DNA of 59,732 nt from positions 1 through 59,732 of the IMG/VR virus record IMGVR_UViG_3300032893_000049; one strand, written 5' to 3'. This document shows, piece after piece, positions 15,907 to 52,109 of the stretch. Each line of letters starts with the position of its first letter. The first letter of the stretch is position 1. The stretch is from a virus. Under the pieces are notes generated by a model. The model saw nothing but the letters and a program-made list of their open reading frames with translations. It was not told the DNA's origin and searched no databases. A program made the position numbers and the translations under genes.

Positions 15907-16560
15907 ATGTGGCTCGTGGCCGTCGTCCCCCTGCTGCGCGTCGAACACGGGTACCCCGTCGAGGGCCTCGTCGAGTGGCCCGGCAACCCCCGCAAGCACG
16001 ACGAGAACGTGCTGGACGAGTCGGTCGCCGACCACGGCCAGTTCCGCAACGTGCTGGCCCGGGAACTGCCCGACGGCCGCCTCCAGCTACTGGCCGGGCA
16101 CGGCACCCGCGAGGCCCTGATCCGCGCCGGCATCACCCACATTGACGTCGAGGTCCGCGCCGTCCCCGACGACGACCGGGCCCGCCGCATCGTCCTGATC
16201 GAGAACCGGTCCGGGGATCGCGCCCGCTACGACCACTCCAAGCTGCTCGACCTGCTCGACGAGGCCCGCGCCACCCCACACGGCCTGGACGGCACCGGCT
16301 GGGACGCCCAGGGGTACGACGACCTGCTGGCCGCCCACCAGGCCCCGGACCTGGACGACCTGGCCGGGCAGGTCGGCGACCCCACCGACGAGGACCGGAT
16401 GGTCGTCATCCGGGTCCTGGTCGACCCGTCCACGCGCGACCAGTTCAACCGGCTCATGTCCCTGGTCGAGGGGGCGGCCAGCGACGCCGAGAAGTTCTCC
16501 GGGGTGCTGGCCTGGGCCGCCGTGGGTGCCCGCGCAGACGGGCTGGACACGATGCCGTGA
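15907..16560 (+). CDS. ParB/sulfiredoxin-fold nuclease-like protein
   Basis: A 217-residue protein with an N-terminal ParB-type domain: PVEGLVEWPGNPRKHDENVL, DESVADHGQFRNVLAREL and the catalytic/nucleotide motif LLAGHGTREALIRAG, then VEVRAVPDDDRARRIVLIEN. The C-terminal half is acidic and helical. ParB-like proteins of this type bind CTP or ATP; several phage versions are nucleases or DNA-binding. It is first in the modification operon and its stop overlaps the DpdA-like start, so it may help guide the transglycosylase to DNA (inference). The ATG at 15907 is closest to the operator; GTG 15919 is an alternative. Confidence 0.85.
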   Translation: MWLVAVVPLLRVEHGYPVEGLVEWPGNPRKHDENVLDESVADHGQFRNVLARELPDGRLQLLAGHGTREALIRAGITHIDVEVRAVPDDDRARRIVLIENRSGDRARYDHSKLLDLLDEARATPHGLDGTGWDAQGYDDLLAAHQAPDLDDLAGQVGDPTDEDRMVVIRVLVDPSTRDQFNRLMSLVEGAASDAEKFSGVLAWAAVGARADGLDTMP

Positions 16561-17504
16561 CCGTCGAGCTCCGCTACCCCGTCAACGCCCTCACCTCGTT
16601 CCGCTACTTCAAGGACGTCGACCTGACCCCGTTGACAGCCGGCGGGCTGCGGTTGATCGCCGACTCCGGAGCGTTCTCCGCCGCCTCCCAGGGCACCCCG
16701 ATCGACCTGGACGAGTTCGCCGACTGGGCGACCCGGGTCCGGCACCTGGTGTCGTGGGTGGCATCCCTGGACGTCATCGGCGACGCCGACCGCACCTGGA
16801 CCAACTACCAGCGGTTGCGGTCCCTGCACGGCCTGGACGTCATCCCGACCGTCCACTACGGCGCCGACCCGTCCCTGCTGGACCGGTACGCCGGCGACGG
16901 CGTCGACTTCGTCGGCCTGGGCGGCATGGTCGGCCGCAAGTCCGAACCGCAGCGGCTGCTGCGCTGGACCCTGCACATGTTCCGGTACGCCAGGGACCAC
17001 CACCCGGGGATGCGGTTCCACGGCTGGGGGGTCACCCACCCCCAGCTGCTGGCGGCACTGCCCTGGTTCTCCGTCGACTCCTCCGGCGCCGGCTCCGCCT
17101 ACCGGTACGGGCGGGCGAGCCTGTTCAACCCCGACACCGCCCAACTGGTCACCGCCTCCATGAACGGCCGGGACATGCACCGCCACTCCGACCTGCTGCG
17201 CCGCTGGTACGGGGTCACCCCCGCGGAGGTGTCGACGTCCAGCAGCACCAACCGGTCCCTGCACGTGCGGATGGCGGCCCGGTCCCTGCAACTGCGGGAG
17301 GACTGGCTGCGGGCCCGCCACCGGGTCACCCCACCCACCTACGGCCTGACCGACGCACCCAGCAGCGGCCCGCACGTGCACATCTCCGACACCACCAGCA
17401 TCAACTACGTCCCGATCATGCGGCCCGCCGACGACGGCCCGCACATCCACTACGTGGACGCCGCCCCCGGGCACCTGGCTCGACTCACCGAGAGGACCCC
17501 ATGA
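16557..17504 (+). CDS. dpdA: DpdA-like DNA guanine transglycosylase (TGT superfamily)
   Basis: A 315-residue protein with TGT-barrel landmarks: IADSGAFSAASQG (the DSG substrate pocket with the presumed general Asp), VASLDVIGDADRTW (presumed nucleophile Asp), VPTVHYGADPS-like strands, FVGLGGMVGR and a late GWGVTHPQLL / SVDSSGAGSAY region. The tRNA-TGT zinc site is absent. In phages, DpdA enzymes replace guanine in DNA with 7-deazaguanines such as preQ0. The adjacent queC, queD, queE and folE supply exactly that base, which is the best evidence for this role. The GTG start overlaps ParB, and the stop overlaps queC. Confidence 0.85.
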   Translation: MTVELRYPVNALTSFRYFKDVDLTPLTAGGLRLIADSGAFSAASQGTPIDLDEFADWATRVRHLVSWVASLDVIGDADRTWTNYQRLRSLHGLDVIPTVHYGADPSLLDRYAGDGVDFVGLGGMVGRKSEPQRLLRWTLHMFRYARDHHPGMRFHGWGVTHPQLLAALPWFSVDSSGAGSAYRYGRASLFNPDTAQLVTASMNGRDMHRHSDLLRRWYGVTPAEVSTSSSTNRSLHVRMAARSLQLREDWLRARHRVTPPTYGLTDAPSSGPHVHISDTTSINYVPIMRPADDGPHIHYVDAAPGHLARLTERTP

Positions 17505-18202
17505 CAAGCACCCTCGTCCTGCTGTCTGGTGGGCTGGACTCCACCACCCTCGCCGCCCACCTGCTCGACGCCGGCGACCACCTGGAGACCATCTCCATCC
17601 ACTACGGGCAGCGCCACGTCCGCGAGCTGCAGGCCGCCGCCGCCGTCGCCGCCCACCTCGGGCTCCGCCACGACGTCGTCGACCTGTCCGTGCTGCGCCA
17701 GCACCTCACCGGATCTGCCCTCACCGACGACGTGCCCGTCCCCCACGGCCACTACGCCGAGGACACCATGCGCGCCACCGTCGTCCCCAACCGCAACGCG
17801 ATCATGCTGTCGGTCGCGGTCGGCATCGCCGTGGCCCGCCACCTGAACCGGGTCGCCACCGCCGTGCACGCCGGTGACCACTTCGTGTACCCCGACTGCC
17901 GGCCCGCCTTCATCGACGCCATCGACGACGCGGCCCGCCTGGGCACCCAGGGGTTCGGCGACGTCATGGTGACCGCCCCGTTCGTCAACTGGACGAAAGC
18001 GGACATCGCCCGCCGCGCCCACCAGTTGGGCGCCCCCGCGCACCTGTCCTGGTCCTGCTACGAGGGCAACGACCAACACTGCGGCCGGTGCGGGACCTGT
18101 GTGGAGCGGGCCTCCGCGTTCTCACAAGCCGGGGTGCCCGACCCCACGGTCTACGCCGACCGTCAGTTCTGGACCGAGATGATCGAGCGGCACGGAGTCT
18201 GA
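17501..18202 (+). CDS. queC: 7-cyano-7-deazaguanine (preQ0) synthase QueC
   Basis: This 233-residue enzyme converts 7-carboxy-7-deazaguanine to preQ0 with ATP and ammonia. The PP-loop LLSGGLDSTTLAAHLL starts at residue 8. VVPNRNAIMLSVAV, HAGDHFVYPDCRPAF, VNWTKADIARRA and the zinc site SCYEGNDQHCGRCGTCVERA are all present and intact, and the length is normal for the family. ATG 17501 overlaps the DpdA-like stop. I see no amidotransferase (Gat) extension, so preQ0 rather than an amidine is the expected product. Confidence 0.95.
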   Translation: MTSTLVLLSGGLDSTTLAAHLLDAGDHLETISIHYGQRHVRELQAAAAVAAHLGLRHDVVDLSVLRQHLTGSALTDDVPVPHGHYAEDTMRATVVPNRNAIMLSVAVGIAVARHLNRVATAVHAGDHFVYPDCRPAFIDAIDDAARLGTQGFGDVMVTAPFVNWTKADIARRAHQLGAPAHLSWSCYEGNDQHCGRCGTCVERASAFSQAGVPDPTVYADRQFWTEMIERHGV

Positions 18203-18263
18203 CGGTGGGAGTCCACGAAACCTGCTACGTCAAGGTGCACCGTCGTCTCCGTCAGGTCGCCCC

Positions 18264-18674
18264 ATGAACGGACTCGTCGTCACCCCCTGCGGCCGCCGCA
18301 AGGCCCCCGCGCCCACACAGGCAGCGGACCTGTACCGGGGCAGTTACTTCCGGGTCTGCCTGCGGTATGCCCGGCACCTGCAGCCGGACAACCGGATCCG
18401 GATCCTGTCCGCCCTGCACGGCCTTGTCTACCTTGACCAAGTGCTGGCCCCGTACAACGTGATGTTCGGGGGGCCCGGCACCATCCGGGTCGCCCAGATC
18501 CGGGAGCAGGCCGCACAGCAGGGCCTCCTGGACGCCAACCCCGTCATCATCCTTGGCGGCGTTGAGTACGCCTCCCGGGCCCTGCCGGTGTGGCCGCACG
18601 CCACCACCCCCCCTGATCACGGTCGAGGGCCGCATGGGCGACCAGCAGAACGCGATGCGTTGCTGGATGGGTGA
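18264..18674 (+). CDS. DUF6884-like protein with C-terminal frameshift
   Basis: The protein starts NGLVVTPCGRRKAPAPTQAA and contains RIRILSALHGLVYLDQVLAP, the hallmark of DUF6884 (and of YaaA/ArcS-related domains) found in many phages. After ALPVWPHATTP a run of seven C residues (18607-18613) shifts the frame; the read frame ends with a meaningless tail at 18674. In the +1 frame the sequence continues LITVEGRMGDQQNAM and stops at 18684, exactly overlapping the next GTG. So the natural product is probably about 139 residues. Its place inside the preQ0 operon suggests a role in base modification. Homopolymer error, real mutation or frameshifting cannot be separated here. Confidence 0.75.
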   Translation: MNGLVVTPCGRRKAPAPTQAADLYRGSYFRVCLRYARHLQPDNRIRILSALHGLVYLDQVLAPYNVMFGGPGTIRVAQIREQAAQQGLLDANPVIILGGVEYASRALPVWPHATTPPDHGRGPHGRPAERDALLDG

Positions 18675-18680
18675 GGTGTC

Positions 18681-18848
18681 GTGACCGGGATCGTCGCCGC
18701 CCTCCTGCTGGGCGCCACTGTCGGGGCCGTGTTCGCGGTCGCCCGCTTGCCGGTCCCGGCCCCGAGCACCTGGGCGGGAGTCGCCGGGATCGTTGGCCTG
18801 CTCACGGGATGGCTGGCCGTCAACGCCCTGCTGGGAAGGAACCACTGA
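18681..18848 (+). CDS. XapX-domain small membrane protein, 55 aa
   Basis: Two hydrophobic helices, VAALLLGATVGAVFAVARLP and TWAGVAGIVGLLTGWLAV, are separated by VPAPS, the pattern of XapX/DUF1427 proteins. The GTG at 18681 overlaps the frame-corrected stop of the DUF6884 gene, and its stop overlaps the queD ATG. It is therefore an integral member of the operon despite having no obvious metabolic role. It could be a transporter-like or membrane-tethering component. Confidence 0.75.
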   Translation: MTGIVAALLLGATVGAVFAVARLPVPAPSTWAGVAGIVGLLTGWLAVNALLGRNH

Positions 18849-19213
18849 TGTACGAGATCACCAAGGACTTCGCGTTCTCCGCGGCGCACGTCCTGCACGG
18901 GCTGCGCCCCAACCACCCGTGCGGCCGGACCCACGGCCACAACTACACCGTGCGGGTCGCCTTGTCCGCCCACGACCTCAACACGGTCGGGTTCGTCGTC
19001 GACTACGGCGACCTCAAGCCGTTCGGGCTGTGGCTGGACACCAACCTCGACCACCAGCTCCTCAACAAGGTCCTGCCGATGCAGCCGTCGGCGGAGAACA
19101 TGGCCCAGTACCTGCACGCCGTCCTGCACGACGTCGTGCCCGTGCCCGACGGGGTGACCGTCGCGGTGGCCGTGTCCGAGACCCCGAAGACGTGGGCCTG
19201 GTACCGGCCGTGA
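18848..19213 (+). CDS. queD: 6-carboxytetrahydropterin synthase QueD
   Basis: The 121-residue enzyme has all family landmarks: FSAAHVLHG and CGRTHGHNYTVRV supply the zinc-binding histidines and the catalytic Cys, VGFVVDYGDLK and NLDHQLLN follow, and the C-terminal SETPKTWAWY holds the pterin-anchoring Glu. It converts 7,8-dihydroneopterin triphosphate (from FolE) to 6-carboxytetrahydropterin. ATG 18848 overlaps the XapX stop and its stop overlaps queE. Confidence 0.95.
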   Translation: MYEITKDFAFSAAHVLHGLRPNHPCGRTHGHNYTVRVALSAHDLNTVGFVVDYGDLKPFGLWLDTNLDHQLLNKVLPMQPSAENMAQYLHAVLHDVVPVPDGVTVAVAVSETPKTWAWYRP

Positions 19214-19926
19214 CCCTCGCCCATGACCGGCTCCTGGTCGCGGAGGTGTTCGGGCCCACCGTGCAGGGGGAGGGCCGGCGCCTCGGGCAGCGGTGCTCGT
19301 TCGTCCGGCTCGGCGCCTGCAACCTCGCCTGCACCTGGTGCGACACCCCGTACACGTGGGACCGGACCCGCTTCAACCTCACCCGGGAGCTGACCACCCG
19401 GTCCGCGTCCGACATCGCCGCCGAGGTGGCCGGGCACGGCACGAAGCTCACCGTCATCACCGGCGGGGAGCCGCTGCTGCAGCAGCACCGCATCGGGTGG
19501 CGGGCCCTGGTGGAGGACCTGCTCAGCTGCTACCGGTCGGTCGAGGTGGAGACCAACGGCACCCAGGTCCCCGCCATGAACCGGGCCGGCCTCACCTACA
19601 ACGTCAGCCCCAAGCTGGCCCACTCCGGGGACCCCGAGGACGCCCGCATCGTCCCGGCCGCGCTCCACGAGTTCGGGCACCTGGCCCGGGCCAACGTCGC
19701 CGACTGGAAGTTCGTCGTCGCCGACCGCGGCGACCTGGCCGAGGTCAACGCCCTCGTACAGCGGTTCAACGTGCCGGCGTCCCGGGTGTGGGTGATGCCG
19801 GAGGGCACCGACCAGGCCACCATCACGGGCCGCGCCGGCGACCTGGCCGACGTGGTGATCGGGCAGGGGTACAACCTCACCACCCGGCTGCACGTGCTGC
19901 TGTGGGGACAGGAGCGGAAGCGGTGA
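19210..19926 (+). CDS. queE: 7-carboxy-7-deazaguanine synthase QueE (radical SAM)
   Basis: At 238 residues it shows the QueE start VAEVFGPTVQGEGRRLGQRC, the radical-SAM cluster motif CNLACTWCDT (CxxxCxxC), ITGGEPLLQ and a C-terminal NVSPKLAHSGDP region. It makes 7-carboxy-7-deazaguanine from 6-carboxytetrahydropterin using SAM. The GTG start overlaps queD and its end overlaps folE. Confidence 0.95.
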   Translation: MTLAHDRLLVAEVFGPTVQGEGRRLGQRCSFVRLGACNLACTWCDTPYTWDRTRFNLTRELTTRSASDIAAEVAGHGTKLTVITGGEPLLQQHRIGWRALVEDLLSCYRSVEVETNGTQVPAMNRAGLTYNVSPKLAHSGDPEDARIVPAALHEFGHLARANVADWKFVVADRGDLAEVNALVQRFNVPASRVWVMPEGTDQATITGRAGDLADVVIGQGYNLTTRLHVLLWGQERKR

Positions 19927-20510
19927 CCACCAGGGACCTCACGGGCACCGAGGCGGAGGAGCTGTTCGCGGTCGGCATGCGGGCCCTGCTGGGGCAGTTG
20001 GGCGTGGACCCCGACGGGCCGGACGTCGCCGACACCCCCGCCCGATGGGTGCGGGCGCTGCGAGAGATGACCGCCGGCTACGGGGAGGACCCGGCCGCGA
20101 TCCTGTCCCGCACGTTCGAGATGCCCCACGCCGACGAAATGATCGTGGTGACTGGGGTGCCGTTCACCAGCGTCTGCGCCCACCACCTGCTGCCGTTCTG
20201 GGGGACTGGCACCGTCGCCTACATCCCCGCCGAGGGCGCCCCCGTCGTGGGCCTGTCGAAGCTGGCCCGGGTCCTGGACGTCTACGCCAAGCGGCTGCAG
20301 TCCCAGGAGCAGATCACGGTCCAGGTCACCACCGCCCTGGACACCCACCTGCAGACCAGGGGCGCCGCGTGTGTCCTGCGCGCCCAGCACGGGTGCATGG
20401 CTCACCGCGGTGTCCGCAAGCCGGGCGCGGAGATGGTCACCTCCAGCCTGACCGGCGCGTTCCGGTCCGACCCGTCCGCCCGGGCGGAGTTCCTGGCCCT
20501 GGCACGGTAG
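19923..20510 (+). CDS. folE: GTP cyclohydrolase I FolE
   Basis: This 195-residue enzyme converts GTP to 7,8-dihydroneopterin triphosphate, the first step of the pathway. Landmarks are DTPARWVRALREM, VPFTSVCAHHLLPFWG (zinc Cys and His), GLSKLARVLDVYAKRLQSQE and the second zinc Cys in QHGCMAHRGVRK. It ends the operon, followed at once by a 17-bp stem terminator. Carrying its own FolE lets the phage bypass limiting host pterin supply. Confidence 0.95.
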   Translation: MTTRDLTGTEAEELFAVGMRALLGQLGVDPDGPDVADTPARWVRALREMTAGYGEDPAAILSRTFEMPHADEMIVVTGVPFTSVCAHHLLPFWGTGTVAYIPAEGAPVVGLSKLARVLDVYAKRLQSQEQITVQVTTALDTHLQTRGAACVLRAQHGCMAHRGVRKPGAEMVTSSLTGAFRSDPSARAEFLALAR

Positions 20511-49114: not shown

Positions 49115-49621
49115 GTGCCGCACCCTGCTGGGGCGATCGGCCTCACCCACATCGGCGGCCGGCTCGGCGCCGCGATCCGGGTCGGGCAGCTCCTCAACGG
49201 GGCCGCCCCCCGGCACGCCCGCTGGACCCACGCCCTGATCGCTGTCGGGGACGGCACGATCGTGCAGGCCGAACCGGGCGGCGCTCAACGTGTCACCGAG
49301 GCCGCGGCCTGCGCGGGCCGTGAGGTCCTCTGGTTCTTCCCCGACGGCACCACCCCCGGGCAGCGGCAGGTGGCGGCCCGGGCGGCGACTGACCTGACCG
49401 GCGCCCCGTACAGCTTCGCCGACTATGCGGCTCTCGCCGCGGTCCGCCTGCACCTGGACCTGGTCGCGCACGGCCTGCGCGACTACGTCGCCGCGTCAGG
49501 CCGGCTGATCTGCTCCCAACTGGTCGACGAGGCGTACCGGCGGGCCGGGGTGGACCTGATCCCCGGACGCCGCCCCGGTGACGTCACCCCAGCCGACCTG
49601 GCCCGCCTCGCCATTCCCTGA
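49115..49621 (+). CDS. Permuted papain-like (YiiX/NlpC-type) cysteine peptidase, 168 aa
   Basis: WTHALIAVGDGTIVQAEPGG supplies the N-terminal catalytic His, and GRLICSQLVDEAYRRAGVDL the C-terminal Cys nucleophile, an order (His before Cys) typical of circularly permuted papain-like enzymes (YiiX/YaeF, LRAT-like). These act as amidases, acyltransferases or peptidases. Located between the terminase and portal genes, it may process a virion protein or attack the cell wall on entry. The GTG start is two bases after the previous stop. Confidence 0.75.
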   Translation: MPHPAGAIGLTHIGGRLGAAIRVGQLLNGAAPRHARWTHALIAVGDGTIVQAEPGGAQRVTEAAACAGREVLWFFPDGTTPGQRQVAARAATDLTGAPYSFADYAALAAVRLHLDLVAHGLRDYVAASGRLICSQLVDEAYRRAGVDLIPGRRPGDVTPADLARLAIP

Positions 49622-49643
49622 CCGCGAGAGGGGTGCCCACACC

Positions 49644-52109
49644 GTGGCTCGCCGCAACCGCCGCCCCTCCTACAGTCCGCCCACCCAGCGGGCCACCACC
49701 CCCGGCGAGCTGGCCGCCGCGCTCACCCCCGACCTGGTGCAGGCCGTCGCCGCGGAGGTCGTCAAGCAGCTGCGCCTCCCGGCCGGCGCGACAGCGACGC
49801 CCGTGAACCCGATGGCGTTGCAGCAGCTGGCGATGGGCGGGTACGGGACTGGCTTCACCCGGCCGCTGGCGCCCGGCGGGTGGACGGACCCGAACGTCGC
49901 GTTCGGCCCCGGCGTGCCGATCCGGCCGGCTTCCATCGACCCGCTGGAGCCCGCGACGGGCCGGCCCCTGCCGCGCCGGTGGGAGTACCCGGTCACGTTC
50001 AACCTGCCTGGTGCGGGGGAGCGGGTCGTCCCCTGGAGCGTGCTGCGGCAGCTCGCCGACAACGTCAGCATCATCCGGCGGTGCATCGAGATCCGGAAGG
50101 CCGAGATGGTCGGCCTGGACTGGGATTTCGTCGTCGCCGAGTCCGTGTTCGAGAAGGAGATGCTGGACCAGGCGGTGACCCGCGCGGACGTCGCTGCCGC
50201 GAAGGCGGCCGCCGCCGGCGACCCGGACGCGAAGAAGGATCGGGACAAGCGGTCCCCGGTGACCCGCCACTCCATCGAGACCGCCGCGCGGGCCCGTAAC
50301 GCGGGGAGCATCGCCGAGCTGCGCCGCTGGTGGACCAAGCCGGACCGGATCGCCGACTGGACGTTCGAGGAGTGGCTGACCGCCGCCCTGGAGGAGCACT
50401 TCGTCCTCGACGCCCTCACCCTGTTCCCGCACGCCACGCTGGGCGGGGACCTGCACTCCGTCGAGATCATCGCCGGGGACACCATCAAGCCGCTGCTGGA
50501 CCACCGTGGGGCGGTCCCGCAGCCACCGAACCCCGCCTACCAGCAGATCCTGCACGGGTTCCCCCGCGGCGAGTTCACCGCCACCCCCGGGGAGGGCGAC
50601 GAGTTCGCGCGGGACACCCTGATCTACCGGCCCCGCTACCGGCGCGCCAACTCCCCGTACGGGTACTCCAACGTGGAGCAGGCGATCCTCGACGCCGACC
50701 TCTACATGCGCCGCTACCAGTGGATGCGCGCCGAGTACACCGACGGCGTCATCCCCGAGCTGATCCTCAAGGCGAACGCCCCGCTGACCCCGGACCAGCT
50801 GTACGCCTACGAGCGGATCTTCAACGACTTCCTGTCCGGGAACACCGCGGAACGGCACCGGGCGAAGGTCATCCCCGACGGGTTCGACCCGACGGTCATG
50901 ACGTCGGTGGATGAAAGGTACAAGCCGGACTACGACGAGCACCTGATCCGGTTGATCGCGTTGGCGTTCGACGTGATGCCGACCGAGCTGGGGTTCCCGC
51001 CCCGGGGAGGGTTGGGCGGCAAGGGGTTCGCCGACTCGGAGGAGAACGTCACCTACCGGAAGGCGATCCGGCCGACCACGAAGTGGCTGACCGGCATCCT
51101 GAACGAGATCTCCTCGACGTGGCTGCGGATGCCGGAGGAGCTGACGTTCCAGTTCCTGGGCTTGGAGGCCGAGGACGAGGCTGCCGCCCTGACCAGCATG
51201 GAGACGCTGGCCAGGGTGGCGGGCATCACGATCAACGAGATCCGGGACGAGACGGGCCGGCCCCGTTACGACGTGGCGGAGGCGGACATCCCGCTGATCA
51301 TCACCCAGCGGGAGGTCATCCCGCTGGAGGGTGCGATCGACCGGGCGAACGCCGCCGCGACGGCCCCACCGCCCGGCATGGCACCCCAGCCCGGCCAGCA
51401 GGGTCAACAGCTCGGCCAGCAGGGACAGCCCGGCCAGCAGCCCGGGCAGCAGCAGGTCACGAAGGCCGACGTCGGGGTCAGCGTCGCCGGGCTCGCCGTC
51501 GTCGCAGCCGACACCGGTCGGGTCCTCATGCTGCAGCGGGGCCTGGACGGCGACGACCCGAACGGCGGCCGATGGGAGTTCCCCGGCGGCCACCTCGAGG
51601 CCGGGGAGGAACCCCTCGCCGCCGCGAAACGGGAGTGGCAGGAGGAGACCGGCACCGAGCTGCCCACCGGCCAGGTGATCGGCTCGTGGGTGTCCGGCCC
51701 CTACCAGGGGTTCACGTACCGGGTCGACTCCGAGGACCTGGTGCGGCTCAACCCGGGCATCACCCGTACCGTCCTCAACCCCGACGACCCCGACGGGGAC
51801 CTCGTCGAGGTCGCCGCCTGGTGGGCGCCGGACCAGCTCGCCGACAACACCGCGGTCCGGCCGGAGCTCGCCGCGTCGCTGCCGCTGGTGTTGCAGGCCC
51901 TGGCGCCGGTCACGACCGTCGCGAAGGCGGCGGAGGCGCGGGCGTTCAAGCGGTTCGTGGAGAACACCCGCCGCGGCGGGCGTGCCTGGCGGGACTTCCA
52001 GTTCCGGGCGCACCCGTCCTGGCTGGGGAAGGCCGCCAACGACCTGGGCGGTGACGGCATGTACGACGCTGCCGTCCTGGCGTTGGAGTTCACCCTCACC
52101 GCCGCCTGA
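49644..52109 (+). CDS. Portal protein with internal Nudix hydrolase domain, 821 aa
   Basis: Residues about 120-560 are a typical phage portal: WSVLRQLADNVSIIRRCIEI, KAEMVGLDWDFVV, WLTAALEEHFVLDALTLFPH, YRANSPYGYSNVEQ-like segment and a C-terminal FLGLEAEDEAAALTS. A Gln/Gly/Pro linker (575-605) leads to residues 608-742, a complete Nudix domain with box GGHLEAGEEPLAAAKREWQE plus ETG (Gx5Ex7REx2EExG). After it the portal-type tail resumes (ARAFKRFVENTRRGGRAWRD). Portals form the 12-mer DNA gate; the Nudix domain hydrolyses nucleoside diphosphate derivatives. GTG behind GAGAGGGG. Confidence 0.88.
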   Translation: MARRNRRPSYSPPTQRATTPGELAAALTPDLVQAVAAEVVKQLRLPAGATATPVNPMALQQLAMGGYGTGFTRPLAPGGWTDPNVAFGPGVPIRPASIDPLEPATGRPLPRRWEYPVTFNLPGAGERVVPWSVLRQLADNVSIIRRCIEIRKAEMVGLDWDFVVAESVFEKEMLDQAVTRADVAAAKAAAAGDPDAKKDRDKRSPVTRHSIETAARARNAGSIAELRRWWTKPDRIADWTFEEWLTAALEEHFVLDALTLFPHATLGGDLHSVEIIAGDTIKPLLDHRGAVPQPPNPAYQQILHGFPRGEFTATPGEGDEFARDTLIYRPRYRRANSPYGYSNVEQAILDADLYMRRYQWMRAEYTDGVIPELILKANAPLTPDQLYAYERIFNDFLSGNTAERHRAKVIPDGFDPTVMTSVDERYKPDYDEHLIRLIALAFDVMPTELGFPPRGGLGGKGFADSEENVTYRKAIRPTTKWLTGILNEISSTWLRMPEELTFQFLGLEAEDEAAALTSMETLARVAGITINEIRDETGRPRYDVAEADIPLIITQREVIPLEGAIDRANAAATAPPPGMAPQPGQQGQQLGQQGQPGQQPGQQQVTKADVGVSVAGLAVVAADTGRVLMLQRGLDGDDPNGGRWEFPGGHLEAGEEPLAAAKREWQEETGTELPTGQVIGSWVSGPYQGFTYRVDSEDLVRLNPGITRTVLNPDDPDGDLVEVAAWWAPDQLADNTAVRPELAASLPLVLQALAPVTTVAKAAEARAFKRFVENTRRGGRAWRDFQFRAHPSWLGKAANDLGGDGMYDAAVLALEFTLTAA

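Follow-up and report, generated by a model that had tools for sequence, protein, structure and literature searches.

Organization of the operon and identity of its enzymes

The viral record IMGVR_UViG_3300032893_000049, analysed here over its whole 59,732 bases and referred to as the window, derives from a tailed phage of actinobacterial type, with a guanine plus cytosine content of approximately 72% and genes encoding terminase, portal and head proteins; no near-identical relative at the DNA level was found among isolated phages. Eight genes on the plus strand, at positions 15907–20510, encode in order a ParB-like protein, DpdA, QueC, a DUF6884 protein, XapX, QueD, QueE and FolE, and most neighboring genes overlap by one to four bases (Table 1). 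A first-pass annotation of this DNA had described the region as a self-sufficient operon for 7-deazaguanine DNA modification, in which a complete FolE, QueD, QueE and QueC route with intact catalytic motifs had a DpdA-like transglycosylase gene directly upstream, with overlapping stop and start codons. Our results agree with this description. All eight genes are in place, the dpdA gene overlaps its neighbors on both sides, and the four synthesis enzymes match their families and have motifs that can be read directly, namely CAHH and the second cysteine in FolE, C-x4-HGH, DH and E in QueD, Cx3CxxC in QueE (as CNLACTWC), and LSGGLDS with four cysteines in QueC. With the identity of DpdA also upheld, the region is very likely an operon for 7-deazaguanine DNA modification.

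The window DpdA is 46% identical to that of LizLemon, a phage of the Rosebush species, and 47% identical to that of Rhodococcus phage Finch, and it aligned with bacterial DpdA in a profile comparison (hhalign; probability 97%, E 1.9e-10). In a Foldseek search with its AlphaFold2 model (predicted local distance difference test, pLDDT, 85), tRNA-guanine transglycosylases (TGTs) aligned over more than 300 columns, nearly the whole length, and had the highest TM-scores (0.48–0.56), while several other TIM-barrel enzymes had E-values similar to those of the TGTs. The protein also matched a DNA-guanine transglycosylase, PDB 7ui4, with an E-value of 0.026. Placement of the product of the gene at 16557 away from DpdA and TGT by structure had been named beforehand as an outcome that would speak against the operon; TGTs were among the best matches. 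Two dpdA-like genes occur in one operon at loci L023, L035, L040, L041, L043, L054, L061, L072, L078, L093 and L112 of our comparison; the paired products might be transglycosylases that differ in their sites, or might form a heterodimer like the eukaryotic TGT.

Table 1. Genes of the predicted 7-deazaguanine DNA-modification operon in the window.
Feature	Coordinates	Strand	Family match and junction
ParB-like protein, 217 amino acids, first gene	15907..16560	+	PHROG 723, E 3.5e-33
DpdA-type DNA-guanine transglycosylase, 315 amino acids	16557..17504	+	PHROG 7068 "queuine tRNA-ribosyltransferase", E 8.5e-89; GTG start, GTGA overlap with ParB stop
QueC, 7-cyano-7-deazaguanine synthase, without Gat fusion	17501..18202	+	PF06508, 3.1e-63; TIGR00364 above cut-off; ATGA overlap with DpdA
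DUF6884 protein, 136 amino acids as read	18264..18674	+	PF21818, 3.6e-16
XapX-domain small membrane protein, 55 amino acids	18681..18848	+	TIGR03510, 41.9 bits (cut-off 27.8)
QueD, 6-carboxytetrahydropterin synthase	18848..19213	+	PTPS PF01242, 1e-29; TGATG junction with XapX
QueE, radical SAM 7-carboxy-7-deazaguanine synthase	19210..19926	+	PHROG 2076, 9e-56; GTGA overlap with QueD
FolE, GTP cyclohydrolase I	19923..20510	+	PF01227, 1.5e-58; GTGA overlap with QueE

The DUF6884 protein and its relation to DpdC

The protein encoded between queC and the XapX gene scored 60 bits against PF21818 (cut-off 30) and has both of the motifs, CxxxK and LSAxxG, by which Pfam defines DUF6884 (PMC11701544), here as C9-x3-K13 and LSALHG. 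The best PDB match of its AlphaFold2 model (pLDDT 89.8) was YaaA (5caj; probability 0.99, E 0.006). YaaA (DUF328, PF03883) and YfjM of Bacillus subtilis (DUF6884) have the fold and the two motifs in common with the window protein; they have no tie to 7-deazaguanine operons, and DNA-binding or repair roles have been proposed for them. Among the papers searched, DUF6884 was named in two, the Pfam paper and the GATOR-GC preprint. A 2023 paper in Nucleic Acids Research reportedly describes four further 7-deazaguanine derivatives in phages, and may discuss DUF6884.

The bacterial enzyme DpdC, which has been placed in DUF6884 (PMC11888242) or in DUF328 (PMC12839542), hydrolyses dPreQ0, the deoxynucleoside of 7-cyano-7-deazaguanine (preQ0), in DNA to 2'-deoxy-7-amido-7-deazaguanosine (dADG). 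A profile of in-operon phage DUF6884 sequences aligned by hhalign with eight bacterial DpdC sequences over 109 columns (97.2%, E 4.7e-11), with C9-x3-K13, LY24xG, S49AxxGL, Y64 and Y102 in register, and the residues C9, K13, Y24, S49, G53, Y64 and Y102 were invariant across 19 phage DUF6884 sequences. The DpdC sequences came from one actinobacterial genome and seven plasmids, and we regard the set as genuine because its members adjoin dpdB and, in stretches long enough, dpdA. Judged from these sequence profiles, the DUF6884 protein and the catalytic core of bacterial DpdC are homologues. DUF6884 sequences from outside such operons matched DpdC equally well (E 3.5e-11), so that homology alone cannot separate the two groups, whereas operon context does. 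In the DUF6884 tree, DpdC forms its own clade. Kinship of DUF6884 with ArcS (DUF5591), suspected from a similar C-x3-K-type motif, was rejected, with hhalign E-values of 0.2–0.7 against a thin profile of two phage ArcS-like sequences.

At a run of seven cytosines (18607–18613), the DUF6884 frame of the window departs from the conserved C-terminus. The conserved C-terminal GRMGDQ lies in the +1 frame after this run and ends at 18684; it resembles the ends of relatives such as those at loci L091 and L051, and gives a four-base overlap with the XapX start, like the other junctions of the operon. The simplest reading is a homopolymer error in the contig, and slippage or real damage is possible. 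Because the break comes only after the invariant residues, our conclusions about the family are independent of it.

Occurrence of DUF6884 in dpdA and queC operons

To place the window protein among its relatives we used viral contigs found by scanning with alignments of DpdA (80 loci) and of DUF6884 (another 80 rows); alignments were required, as scans with a single DpdA or DUF6884 protein gave almost no matches. DUF6884 sequences were clustered at 80% identity and counted as in-operon when they lay within 600 nucleotides, on the same strand, of dpdA or queC. By this measure, 25 of 61 clusters in the DUF6884-derived sample and 10 of 13 in the dpdA-derived sample were in-operon, the former figure being biased upward because in-operon sequences had supplied the pattern for the scan. 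The 25 of 61 compares with 6 of 73 viral XapX loci in the scan that had dpdA or queC anywhere in their flanks (p 9e-6). An in-operon DUF6884 was present in 38 of 98 loci with both dpdA and queC, loci that are partly non-independent. Of the 20 dpdA records with any DUF6884, 10 had it in-operon, where their length would predict 4.0 (p 7e-4), and the same held for the long records of this kind (5 of 14, where 1.3 were predicted; p 0.006). The operon label was also clustered on the DUF6884 tree, requiring 13 changes compared to 26.6 when shuffled, with none of 500 shuffles as low, on a tree in which few deep forks are resolved. In many divergent phages the in-operon gene either separates dpdA from queC or closely follows queC, and it occupies the same slot at a locus in a Nocardia transvalensis genome (L170), which may represent a prophage. 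Among the isolate matches listed, no phage had an intact in-operon DUF6884. Apart from nt-1, none of the 49 dpdA phages that were tested yielded an ArcS, and none of the Gat-QueC loci, of which there were only three, had DUF6884.

Loci L138, L147, L151, L158 and L160 have DpdA, DUF6884 and QueC, with ParB in most, and no QueD, QueE or FolE was detected in them; these phages may take the precursor from the host. In Streptomyces phage TurkishDelight (L008, 6116–14279), DUF6884 is the C-terminal portion of a larger protein. Its neighbors are a pair of ParB-like genes and genes for a C5-cytosine methylase and for a glutamine amidotransferase/asparagine-synthase protein, and this region is perhaps another base-modification cluster. 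Conjugative plasmids of enterobacteria also encode DpdC-like DUF6884 proteins, in these cases without an annotated dpdA in the vicinity (L177, 3839–4507; L179, 2917–3540; and many others).

Comparison with Rosebush-type operons and the predicted base

The core of the window operon is of an already known kind, the Rosebush type, and the difference lies in what stands between queC and queD. Members of the Rosebush species have the order ParB-DpdA-QueC-QueD-QueE-FolE, with gene overlaps as in the window, and this order is common to Mycobacterium phages LizLemon and CRB2, Gordonia phage Sour and Rhodococcus phage Finch, whose DpdA proteins are 43–47% identical to that of the window. LizLemon stood for the Rosebush species in this comparison, in place of the Rosebush genome itself. 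In the operons of these phages, neither a DUF6884 nor a XapX gene separates queC from queD, whereas the window has both. In Rosebush DNA, dPreQ0 makes up 28% of G and dADG 0.003% (PMC6884629).

Because DUF6884 corresponds to the conserved core of the enzyme that converts dPreQ0 to dADG, dADG is a better prediction for the window than dPreQ0. DUF6884 probably acts on the group at the 7-position, and we put the probability that the final base is dADG, with DUF6884 serving as a minimal stand-alone DpdC core, at roughly one in two. The first-pass annotation had recognized no tailoring enzyme and had taken dPreQ0 as the default base. It was correct in that QueC has no Gat fusion, and it had left open an action of DUF6884 on the base; however, DUF6884 matches the DpdC core, and the homology to DpdC favors dADG over that default. 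We infer a scheme in which FolE, QueD, QueE and QueC would convert GTP to preQ0, DpdA, with ParB as a near-constant partner and putative counterpart of DpdB, would exchange guanines in DNA for preQ0, and DUF6884 would then hydrate dPreQ0 at its nitrile group, giving the carboxamide dADG. Cys9 of DUF6884 might attack the nitrile, with Lys13, Tyr24, Ser49, Tyr64 and Tyr102 lining the pocket, and the modified base could shield the phage DNA from host restriction.

It could instead be argued that the operon makes dPreQ0 only, as in Rosebush, and that DUF6884 leaves the base unchanged or is inactive here. The gene order is the same as in the Rosebush species, whose type phage has dPreQ0, 60 of the 98 loci with dpdA and queC have no in-operon DUF6884, and LizLemon encodes a DUF6884 protein although the DNA of Rosebush, of the same species, contains dPreQ0, so that DUF6884 elsewhere in these genomes yields no bulk dADG. 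The LizLemon protein, of moron type, is encoded outside the operon, on the opposite strand, and belongs to a subgroup in which 19 of 20 members are non-operon. The frame break would also fit an inactive protein. However, this explanation accounts neither for the recurrence of in-operon DUF6884 across many divergent phages nor for its invariant DpdC motif, and we consider it less likely than dADG. A smaller likelihood attaches to DUF6884 acting on preQ0 or dPreQ0 with some other product, such as an amidine, a carboxylate or a conjugate, or on the free base before insertion. Its gene often adjoins queC rather than dpdA, and nitrile chemistry is common to other preQ0 enzymes, which would be consistent with such an activity. 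Against it, DUF6884 has no detectable relation to ArcS, as compared with the two phage sequences above, and its closest characterised relative, DpdC, is reported to be an amide-giving hydrolase (PMC11888242, PMC12839542). It is improbable that, in the manner proposed for YaaA and YfjM, DUF6884 binds DNA as a repair factor and tends lesions, abasic or covalent, that DpdA leaves behind: its YaaA-like fold, the Pfam note on YfjM and lesions (PMC11701544) and its wide occurrence without dpdA would suit that role, but its homology to DpdC speaks for chemistry on the base, and its link to queC is as close as that to dpdA, even at loci where dpdA does not adjoin it.

Several observations weigh against dADG as the final base, among them the LizLemon protein and the abundance of DUF6884 in the absence of dpdA, already mentioned, and the suggestion by Pfam of DNA binding or repair for the family (PMC11701544). 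The frame break may disable the window copy. Scored alone, the window protein gave an E-value of 0.0035 against the PADLOC DpdC model, versus 3.5e-17 against PDC-M57A, and it does not have the C-terminal half of DpdC (136 amino acids as read, compared to about 310 in the bacterial protein with its long C-terminal part). The missing half and the weak scores against curated models indicate that the protein is DpdC-like, and not a DpdC. No DUF6884 was found in phages CP220, CPt10, CAjan, 9g, 7-11, Dp-1, Vid5, nt-1 or HVTV-1; dADG has been reported in CP220, CPt10 and 7-11, so that none of these serves as a positive control. Among phages whose DNA chemistry has been determined, none is known to us to have DUF6884 in the operon.

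The bacterial dpdA-dpdB-dpdC module, which produces dADG, and the window both encode a TGT-like DpdA, a ParB-type partner and a DUF6884/DpdC core together; no dpdD–K restriction genes were seen within the window operon, unlike in the bacterial Dpd system. Gat-QueC, QueF/QueF-L and ArcS carry out tailoring after preQ0 and are encoded with dpdA and que genes, as proposed here for DUF6884, but belong to different protein families. We suggest, more tentatively than for the window itself, that phages widely encode a minimal, single-domain family for dPreQ0 tailoring, the in-operon DUF6884, which would complete a phage version of the bacterial module, and that dADG or a further derivative is present in a large set of dpdA phages for which dPreQ0 would be expected. 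In that case, the rule that preQ0 genes and DpdA without Gat, ArcS or QueF indicate dPreQ0 would mispredict the many phages with an in-operon DUF6884, and the final base in phage DNA decides which restriction systems the phage escapes. A domain of unknown function would gain a testable substrate, the phage and bacterial Dpd modules would be linked, and DUF6884 may offer a small enzyme for making DNA containing dADG.

ParB and XapX as partners

The first-pass annotation had held that ParB, DUF6884 and XapX are fixed together in this operon. This was not borne out: of the 89 loci that allowed the test, 79 have ParB ahead of dpdA, and it is the only near-universal partner, compared to 38 of 98 for DUF6884 and 2 of 50 dpdA records for XapX. 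Bacterial DpdB has been described as a ParB-like ATPase (PMC12839542). It belongs to the DGQHR type and has about 380 amino acids; the window ParB, at 217 amino acids, is only weakly similar to it (hhalign probability 20%, E 0.0012). Since the similarity is confined to a short stretch around the G-x-x-R-type box of ParB, equivalence is at most plausible, and the phage ParB is a possible functional counterpart of DpdB.

XapX was found beside queC, dpdA or folE in nine separate contigs, comprising the window and the dpdA/que operons of L010/L267, L032, L171, L198, L199, L200, L205 and L233, several of them from unrelated phages, and no paper among those searched mentions both XapX and phages. 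It can be viewed as an accessory membrane protein that is optional in these operons and, if the proposed tailoring is correct, would be an additional optional membrane component of operons of that kind. Elsewhere in the window, the portal protein (49578–52106) appears to be fused to a MutT/NUDIX-like domain, with PHROG matches at 123–631 and 634–756.

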